This document shows, in pieces, positions 3,174-30,558 of a DNA stretch of 61,491 nt. The notes beneath the pieces were generated by a model. That model did not search any database and was not told where the DNA came from. It saw nothing but the letters and a program-made list of their open reading frames with translations. The translations under genes were made by a program, and so were the position numbers. The first letter of the stretch is position 1. Every line of letters begins with the position of its first letter. This stretch comes from an uncultured Pelagibacteraceae bacterium (GTDB lineage: Bacteria; Pseudomonadota; Alphaproteobacteria; Pelagibacterales; Pelagibacteraceae): the NCBI GenBank assembly GCA_902601545.1, contig CACKNR010000006.1:1-61491 (forward strand). Direction: 5' to 3'.

Positions 3174-3249
3174 GGGCGGTTAGCTCAGTTGGTAGAGCAT
3201 CTCGTTTACACCGAGAGGGTCATAGGTTCGAGTCCTTTACCGCCCACCA
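3174..3249 (+). tRNA. tRNA-Val (anticodon TAC)
   Basis: A 76-base cloverleaf. The acceptor 5' arm GGGCGGT pairs fully with ACCGCCC, followed by discriminator A and an encoded CCA. The anticodon stem TCTCG/CGAGA encloses loop TTTACAC with anticodon TAC at 3207-3209. The T loop carries GGTTCGAGTCC. It lies eight bases before tRNA-Asp and is probably co-transcribed with it. Confidence 0.97.
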
Positions 3250-3257
3250 TTAAATAC

Positions 3258-3335
3258 GGGGGTGTAGCTCAGCTTGGTTAGAGCGCCTGCCTGTCACGCA
3301 GGAGGTCGCGGGTTCGAGTCCCGTCACTCCCGCCA
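3258..3335 (+). tRNA. tRNA-Asp (anticodon GTC)
   Basis: A 78-base cloverleaf. The acceptor arm GGGGGTG pairs with CACTCCC with one G-U wobble, then discriminator G and an encoded CCA. The anticodon stem CCTGC/GCAGG encloses loop CTGTCAC with anticodon GTC at 3293-3295. The T arm GCGGGTTCGAGTCCCGT is canonical. Its 3' end is one base from the stop of the convergent glycosyltransferase-like gene. Confidence 0.97.
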
Positions 3336-29200: not shown

Positions 29201-29704
29201 GAAGAATTTTTTAGAAATAATGACAATGAGGGTTTAGTTGCGGGGACGATAATGTCAATTCAAGAAAAAAAAAGTGCAAAAGGAACACCTTACGCAATAG
29301 TAAAATTTAGTGATCAAAAAATGGAATTTGAATTATTTTTATTTGCTGAAATTTTAGTAGCTAACAGAGATAAAATAAAAGAGTCAGAGTCTTTCATTCT
29401 CACTTTACAAAAAGATAAAACAACAGAAGAAAATGTAAAAAAAAGAATAAATGTACGAAAGATTACCAGTATTGAAGAAATAACTAATAAACCATACTCT
29501 AAAGTGATAATTGAACTTAGAGAAAACTTTAAAATTAACGAAATCAAGGAAATTTTATGTCAAAAAGGAAATACTAAGATTGAAATAGTAATAAATAATG
29601 AAAATAAAAAAGTTCATTATTTACTTCAAAATAGTCGTAAATTTGATTTAAAAGATTACAAGGCTTTAAAAACTAAGGAATACGTTAAAAAAATAACAGT
29701 TTAG
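26288..29704 (+). CDS. dnaE: DNA polymerase III subunit alpha
   Basis: The 1138-residue replicative polymerase. An N-terminal PHP domain (about 5-260) opens with KIHTQYSICEG. The palm contains GPGRGSGAGSLVAYS (about 362-376) and the catalytic aspartates in PDFDID at 402-407. The fingers include FNKSHAAAYALIAYQTAYLK. The tau/beta-binding C-terminal region includes an OB-fold (about 965-1065), and the QTSLF motif (about 910-915) is a probable beta-clamp binding peptide. The PHP domain has lost several metal ligands of the proofreading type, as in many proteobacterial DnaE. Starts inside the lolD end by eleven bases. Confidence 0.96.
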   Translation: MLDSKNNFNNLKIHTQYSICEGAIKIDELAEYCKSNKIKCLGLADSFNLCGALEFSEKLSKVGTHPIIGTQINIRAFNSIGKVTLYAKSEAGYKNLTKLSSLSYLKASGTEDPACEIKDIINNNSDLILLTGNYRNFFGNLFQSNKIKDLKETIVKFKNHFKDRIYFEIQRHNEIDEKSFENFILNNSKSLNIPLIASQEVYYLTQDMYEAHDALKCIGEKSFVDDKNRFKLSNQHFLKDSNELATLFSDIPEALENNYNFHLRFNFKPKKSKPILPSLSNKKNLSPEEELSIQAKSGLTNRIKNFISKKNKDKNLDQIQKIYVDRLEHEINIINSMNYASYFLIVSDYIKWAKKNSIPVGPGRGSGAGSLVAYSLDITDLDPIEYNLIFERFLNPDRISMPDFDIDFCEEKRDQVFEYLKKKYQDGVAHIITFGKLKARMALRDVGRVLGLSYGHVDRLCKMVPFDPSRPLTLQESINREPRFKEEIKLNPKVKKLLDLSLKLEGLNRNMATHAAGVVIAGEKLFDQFPLYVDHSSNLILPSTQYDMYSSENAGLVKFDLLGLKTLTVIDKTIKRLKLKKIQLDISKINQNDEKVFSLLSTGETTGLFQLESAGMREAIKQMKPNKFDDIIALVALYRPGPMSNIPIYNDCKNGTKEPDYIHPILKEILKPTYGIIIYQEQVMQIAQILAGFTAGEADILRRAMGKKKKAELDKQKERFINGAIKNGIAKDVANFVFTKIEPFAQYGFNKSHAAAYALIAYQTAYLKTYYKEDFIAATMSTELTNTSKLREFVEELKRLKVEIINPSINNCFAEFKAIGGKIYYGLGAIKNVGFEAISNIVDEREKNGKFKSFFDFINRVNSKDVNKLQLEGLTKAGVFDEFEKDRNKIFLSIPKIIQQIKIINEDKSNNQTSLFANNDNHGYNFDFLPSKPWKQKVLLSEEFKALGFYISNHPLNEYEELFNNLNILTYEEFFRNNDNEGLVAGTIMSIQEKKSAKGTPYAIVKFSDQKMEFELFLFAEILVANRDKIKESESFILTLQKDKTTEENVKKRINVRKITSIEEITNKPYSKVIIELRENFKINEIKEILCQKGNTKIEIVINNENKKVHYLLQNSRKFDLKDYKALKTKEYVKKITV

Positions 29705-29708
29705 AGTA

Positions 29709-29736
29709 TTGATTTTTTGTCTTGTTTGTATATATC
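29709..29736 (+). promoter_or_regulatory. Candidate sigma70 promoter for rpsB operon
   Basis: TTGATT at 29709-29714 and TATATC at 29731-29736 are separated by 16 bases. This predicts a start near 29743, just ahead of the structured leader. The boxes match the consensus moderately. It is the only reasonable promoter-like pair in the 119-base gap between dnaE and rpsB. Confidence 0.4.
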
Positions 29737-29747
29737 AGTTAGTAATT

Positions 29748-29823
29748 TCGCACACAGTTTTAAGGGTAATTCCCTCCCGGTACATGAAAGTGGAGTTGCT
29801 GTGGTGGATTAACCGGAAAATAT
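29748..29823 (+). ncRNA. Ribosomal protein S2 (rpsB) leader RNA, putative pseudoknot autoregulatory element
   Basis: This is the most GC-rich non-coding stretch in the window and lies immediately before rpsB. Pairings visible by eye: CACAGT at 29753-29758 with GCTGTG at 29798-29803; GGG/CCC hairpin at 29764-29766 with 29772-29774; and CCGGT at 29777-29781 with ACCGG at 29812-29816. The first and third stems cross, forming a pseudoknot. The ACCGG strand overlaps the likely ribosome site (CCGGA, about seven bases before the ATG), so folding or S2 binding could block initiation. A structured leader upstream of S2 in Pelagibacter has been described; identity with it is inferred from position. Confidence 0.65.
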
Positions 29824-30558
29824 ATGAACGTACCAAAAATAGATATTAAGCAACTGCTTGAAGCAGGAGTTCACTTAGGTCACAAAACCTTGAGATGGAA
29901 CCCAAAAATGAAGAAATACATTTTTGGAGAAAAAAACTCTATACATATTATAGATCTAACTCAAACTGTAGATTTTTTAAAAAACGCTTTAGTAGAGGTT
30001 CATAAAATTATTTCAAGCGGTGGTAAAATTCTAATCGTTTCAACAAAAAAACAAGCCTCAGAACAAGTAAGTCAATTAGCAGAAGATACAGGACAGTACT
30101 ATGTTAATTATAGATGGTTAGGCGGTATGCTTACAAATTGGAATACGATCCAAAATTCAATTAAAAGACTTAAAAAACTTGAAGATCAACTTTCAAAAGA
30201 AAATTTAGGTTTTACCAAAAAAGAAATTTTAAAGTTTGGAAAAGAAAGAGAAAAATTAAAAAGATCTCTAGGAGGGATCATGGAAATGAAAAAAATTCCC
30301 GAATTAATTTTCATAATTGATACGAATATCGAGTCGTTGGCTGTTGCAGAAGCAAAAAAACTTGGTATCCCAATAATTGCTGTCTTAGACACAAATTCTG
30401 ATCCAACTGGAATTGATTTTCCTATCCCTGGCAATGATGATGCTAGAAGATCAATAAACCTTTATTGTGAACTTTTAAAAAATACGATTAAAGATGCGGA
30501 AAAATTTATTAAAGGTTCTGAGGAAGTAAATAAAAAAAAGCCTGAAAAGAAAAATTAA
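29824..30558 (+). CDS. rpsB: 30S ribosomal protein S2
   Basis: A 244-residue small-subunit protein. The N-terminal [25 protein letters not shown] block, the coiled insertion (about 105-160), the [42 protein letters not shown] run (key motif DTNSDP) and a lysine-rich C-terminal tail are all typical. It is preceded by the structured leader described here and followed 18 bases later by tsf, the classical partner gene. Confidence 0.97.

Follow-up and report, generated by a model that had tools for sequence, protein, structure and literature searches.

What does the short stretch between dnaE and rpsB encode in an uncultured Pelagibacteraceae bacterium, and does its fold lie over the site where ribosomes would bind? 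The window (the whole 61,491-nt stretch of DNA that was analysed) is SAR11, and the best 80 relatives of its S2 protein, found in a protein search of named genome records, are all Pelagibacteraceae, Pelagibacterales or Pelagibacter. It comes from an 844-kb assembly that is 72% complete. The dnaE stop is at 29704, just upstream of a promoter-like pair, and the two open frames downstream of the leader are ones we take to be rpsB, from the leader family, and tsf, from its sequence (Table 1).

Table 1. Positions in the window of the rpsB leader elements and of the neighbouring genes.
Feature	Position	Strand	Remarks
Candidate promoter TTGATT / TATATC	29709-29714 / 29731-29736	+	Hexamers 16 nt apart; conserved in the closest leaders
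P1, 5' strand	29749-29758	+	A29752 bulged; partner 29798-29806; 5 of 9 P1 pairs changed on both sides in SAR11
P2 hairpin AGGG/CCCU	29763-29775	+	From the sequence; 1 of 2 tested P2 pairs changed on both sides in SAR11
Pseudoknot, 5' strand CCGGU	29777-29781	+	Invariant in 81 of 81 SAR11 leaders; covaries in Proteobacteria
P3, two possible pairs	29783-29792	+	29783-29792 and 29784-29791; letters complementary
P1, 3' strand	29798-29806	+	Partner of P1 5' strand
Pseudoknot, 3' strand ACCGG	29812-29816	+	Ends 7 nt upstream of rpsB start; invariant in SAR11
Presumed rpsB, ribosomal protein S2, 244 aa	29824-30558	+	Open frame; homologs in Pelagibacteraceae records
Presumed tsf, elongation factor Ts, 287 aa	30577-31440	+	Open frame, second operon gene, 18 nt past rpsB

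The original prediction had read two crossing stems by eye, CACAGT/GCTGTG and CCGGT/ACCGG, and both proved exact in letters and coordinates: the printed letters and pairs place CACAGT at 29753-29758 and GCTGTG at 29798-29803, forming the core of P1, and CCGGT at 29777-29781 and ACCGG at 29812-29816, the two strands of the pseudoknot. P1 is longer than had been noted, since 29749-29751 can pair with 29804-29806 around the bulged A29752; the middle pair of this outward extension, the G-U at 29750/29805, is the weakest in SAR11 (G-U in 62 of 69 distinct leaders, U-A in one and unpaired in six). P3 is weak in the window copy because A29782 replaces a C that is present in all 80 other SAR11 leaders of the 81-leader alignment; this may be a true substitution or an assembly error. 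An ATG at 29784, inside P3, opens an out-of-frame ORF running into rpsB; because 27 of the 80 other SAR11 leaders also contain ATGs, at scattered other positions, this one looks like a chance occurrence.

Folded as a single sequence, the leader gives a weak signal (z -1.55, with 13 of 200 shuffles folding equally well). For the bare core, 29749-29826, another structure comes out as the best nested fold (-15.5 kcal/mol, versus -13.0 kcal/mol for P1 plus P2); a nested fold cannot count the pseudoknot pairs, which as an isolated duplex amount to -6.6 kcal/mol. The predicted fold does exceed chance, but only when homologs are compared.

The leader is the published rpsB motif, pseudoknot included, and is thus an already known element, because Meyer et al. 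described this motif from 'Candidatus Pelagibacter ubique' in 2009, between dnaE and rpsB (motif section of PMC2704228). That section gives P1, P2 and P3, the latter two short, and a pseudoknot which by the authors' account had not been identified before; an excerpt of a 2019 paper reports the motif again in strain HIMB5. As far as the motif section goes, the Pelagibacter ubique element and ours share the dnaE-rpsB location, P1, a P2 and a P3 that are both very short, and a five-pair pseudoknot, and no difference is apparent except the window's weak P3 (A29782). The window copy lies directly upstream of rpsB, ending 7 nt before the start; its P1 and P2 covary in SAR11, its P3 comes to two possible pairs, and the five pairs joining the P2-P3 junction to the 3' extension are present, invariant in SAR11 and covarying Proteobacteria-wide. 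The earlier statement that a pseudoknotted S2 leader had been described in Pelagibacter was likewise borne out, by Meyer et al. and by the Rfam alignment: RF01815 (rpsB) aligns end to end over 29749-29832, including UCCGGU and UUAACCGG, with E = 2.3e-4 in a 251-base search and 0.056 over the whole window. Its score of 29.8 bits is below the gathering score of 40, and we therefore file the leader under the published motif and not as an Rfam-level RF01815 call. RF00127 (t44) was absent from the three matches to the window stretch at E <= 10. In the RF01815 model P2 and P3 are longer, and an AGGAG-like stretch, absent from SAR11 leaders, follows downstream. The E. coli rpsB leader (RF00127 t44, 83.5 bits on MG1655) resembles that of the window: read by eye, it has a similar P1 (CACACACGUAUC / GAUACGUGGAGG) and a pseudoknot, GGGGU/ACCCC, and its elements follow one another in the same order.

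Across 147 Pelagibacterales genomes, RF01815 matches 77 at E <= 1 and none at its cut-off. With a model trained on the SAR11 alignment and lacking the pseudoknot, 123 of these genomes are matched at E <= 0.1 (119 below 1e-4, counted from the listing). These matches are no independent proof, since many of the genomes lie near the rows on which the model was trained; it found no match in 24 of the 147, many of them incomplete and some more than 90% complete (e.g., G295, G311 and G347). The Rfam cut-off leaves SAR11 rpsB leaders unannotated (e.g., L245-L274), though the motif was first described in Pelagibacter. Our analysis confirms that a further SAR11 genome carries the published RNA, and supplies covariation counts for its pseudoknot.

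The original prediction was staked on covariation at 29777-29781/29812-29816 among homologs; none is seen within SAR11, where it would have been the most direct evidence but the bases are invariant, and it is present across Proteobacteria. The SAR11 set comprised 81 leaders, 69 of them distinct, made up of the window and the best 80 loci chosen by S2 protein similarity and not by leader. In this set 99.2% of the structure cells pair, versus 95.6% in shuffles, and 46 cells are changed on both sides, versus 10.7 in shuffles, a count matched by none of 500 shuffles. Double-sided change was seen in six of the sixteen pairs tested, five of them belonging to P1 and one to P2. All of the variation lies in P1 and P2, however, and the pseudoknot pairs show none in any of the 81 leaders; with these ten bases fixed through all 69 distinct rows, the covariation test is empty in SAR11 and speaks neither for nor against pseudoknot pairing. 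RNAalifold suggested a simple hairpin in which the pseudoknot helix gains two pairs by using the GG that follows P1; we rejected it, as neither added pair is double-changed, the window itself breaks one of them, and the covarying P1 is omitted.

For a wider comparison, S2 was searched in 115 genomes of the class (111 matched) and 120 of the phylum (116 matched), two samples that overlap, and 160 leaders were fetched, from 100 of the 111 class genomes and from 60 of the 116 phylum genomes hand-picked for spread. A template was passed by 124 leaders and failed by 36. The resulting MAFFT alignment, A2, holds 117 rows (108 of the 160 leaders plus 9 of the 81 SAR11 leaders), 16 template-passing rows having been omitted by eye; restoring these gives a 133-row set with all 124 template rows and the 9 SAR11 rows. 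Because the template requires pairing at four P1 positions, P1 counts on A2 are biased by selection; the choice of rows made no use of pseudoknot pairing. All five pseudoknot pairs are formed in 97 of the 117 rows, and the covariants include CUGGU/ACCAG in three alphas as well as GGGGU/ACCCC, CGGGU/ACCCG, UGGGU/ACCCA and UCGGU/ACCGA. Two of the five pairs hold 20 double-changed cells, versus 3.3 in shuffles, and 92.5% of pseudoknot cells are paired, versus 87.5% when shuffled, each value being reached by 0 of 500 shuffles; counted by pair, those with at least one double change are no more numerous than in shuffles (2 vs 1.7). Sliding the 3' partner by one to three columns (+1 to +3) still leaves 13-16 double-changed cells, versus 20 in register, with 14-42% of cells paired (92.5% in register) and a covariation score of 0.018-0.049 (0.130 in register).

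The 133-row set gives 30 double-changed pseudoknot cells, where shuffles have a mean of 5.3 and a maximum of 12 in 500. Of its 42 rows with a 3' strand other than ACCGG, 26 can form all five pairs with a partner close to where it is expected, as against 115 of 1592 trials in a control using a strand of another type, and among the 16 that fall short, 15 reach four pairs and one reaches two. In a separate count by type of 3' strand, a strict five-base complement occurs in 2 of 11 rows with ACCGA and in 0 of 7 with AACCG, where the anchor is one base off. Because its pairs covary across Proteobacteria, the pseudoknot is, on the evidence of aligned homologs, a real feature of the rpsB leader family.

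The second stem had also been said to cover the bases just before the start codon, and the geometry holds. The rpsB start codon is 29824-29826, which puts the 3' strand of the pseudoknot at -12 to -8, where a Shine-Dalgarno sequence would lie, and in all 81 SAR11 leaders this strand ends 4-10 nt upstream of the start (median 8). In other alpha leaders with ACCGG the distance is 9-23 nt (median 16, n = 68; these are the template-passing leaders with a start codon at the expected place, among them one of the window's own family, L082, with 10 nt and AAGGA), and in E. coli MG1655, unlike the window, it is 24 nt to the AUG, with a separate AGAGGU. A Shine-Dalgarno tetramer (AGGA, GGAG, GAGG or AAGG, strictly inside the gap between pseudoknot and AUG) occurs in 2 of 81 SAR11 leaders versus 60 of 68 other alphas; a looser count, in which the tetramer may use the last two pseudoknot bases, gives 2 of 81 and 66 of 68. 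Four leaders from another family of the same order (L275-L278) have a spacing of 10 nt; after P1 they read GGAUG instead of GGUGG, and their GGAG includes the pseudoknot strand's final two bases. Among window ORFs generally the tetramer is found in 12 of 57, versus 5 of 58 at a control position, and because so few window genes carry it, its absence at rpsB is in line with the genome at large and need not be regulatory. The anti-Shine-Dalgarno sequence is retained in the order, as seen in genomes other than the window's own: GGATCACCTCCTT is present in 8 of 31 genomes searched, one of the same genus as the window, and the window's own incomplete genome yielded no 16S rRNA 3' end. The motif section of Meyer et al. 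is silent on AUG distance and on a Shine-Dalgarno sequence (PMC2704228), and the titles, abstract openings and excerpts of open literature on the rpsB leader, on SAR11 or Pelagibacter ribosome sites and on RF01815 yielded no description of the SAR11 spacing among the matches listed. The series of operator-AUG distances, from E. coli through other alphas to SAR11, could help explain S2 repression.

In E. coli, excess S2 represses rpsB-tsf, S1 is needed, and details are unclear; the ribosome site is reported to be outside the S2 operator (excerpt of PMC10931766). We consider it likely that 29749-29816, the rpsB motif in its SAR11 form, acts as a pseudoknotted translational operator of rpsB-tsf, in which a fold held by S2 competes with the 30S subunit. 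Transcription probably begins just upstream of P1; the leader would then fold into P1 with two short arms, P2 and P3, and the CCGGU of the junction would pair with ACCGG on the 3' side of P1. Excess S2, partnered by S1 as in E. coli, would stabilise the folded leader by binding to it, and translation of rpsB-tsf would fall. An S1 homolog is found in the window's genome (E 2.2e-134), yet below the curated cut-off. By descent of the structure, S2 control is the likeliest function of the leader in SAR11. Because the pseudoknot strand is at -12 to -8 and a separate Shine-Dalgarno sequence is hardly ever present, the fold and the 30S subunit may compete for the same bases; from this geometry we infer direct competition at the ribosome site, and folding of the leader probably hinders the ribosome in SAR11. 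More tentatively, and at somewhat short of an even call, one could envision that the S2 operator in SAR11 has moved onto the ribosome site, the separate Shine-Dalgarno sequence having been lost and the pseudoknot strand having replaced it, so that competition with 30S would be direct, unlike in E. coli.

Alternatively, the operator may be the same but S2 may repress without any need for the ribosome site to be covered, as reported for E. coli; the short SAR11 distance would then reflect only genome shrinkage together with weak Shine-Dalgarno use. The report of an E. coli ribosome site outside the operator (excerpt of PMC10931766), the distant E. coli pseudoknot with its separate AGAGGU, the median of 16 nt in other alphas and the low Shine-Dalgarno use within the window are all consistent with this account. 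The 4-10 nt left in SAR11 nevertheless imply, given the extent of the ribosome footprint on the messenger, that the strand could not be both paired and open to 30S, however S2 otherwise acts, and we regard this explanation as rather unlikely, although it is the strongest of the alternatives. The leader might instead be a static structure, one that shields the messenger or aids initiation, with no S2 control at all. The genome has little regulation and the structure has been retained in it, and the literature consulted shows no S2 binding or repression in SAR11; however, structure and place both match the leader that responds to S2 in E. coli, which makes a purely structural role improbable.

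Still less probable is control by an early end of transcription inside the leader. In Bordetella an rpsB leader transcript was observed as a small RNA, for which the authors suggest inhibited transcription of the full messenger (excerpt of PMC3110155), but a search of 29600-30000 for a terminator-like site found none. As for the pseudoknot itself, CCGG is present in both strands and invariant across SAR11, and ACCGGU is a palindrome, so that CCGG could be conserved for another reason, such as the pairing of two RNA molecules; non-palindromic covariants elsewhere in Proteobacteria (GGGGU/ACCCC, CGGGU/ACCCG) argue against this so strongly that we give it almost no credence. An S2-held fold in competition with the 30S subunit is the reading we prefer.

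The start of transcription placed just upstream of P1 is inferred from 29709-29736, which from its letters and their conservation is a probable promoter. Among the 21 closest SAR11 leaders (the window and L002-L021), TATAT occurs no more than 40 nt upstream of P1 in 20 and TTGATT in 19 (rows read by eye), and TATATC ends 12 nt upstream of P1 in 15, the same distance as in the window; over all 81 SAR11 leaders, TATAT is present in only 21. A consensus promoter scanner reported no promoter at 29709-29736. Elsewhere in the window, 3174-3332 holds two adjacent tRNA genes, both ordinary.
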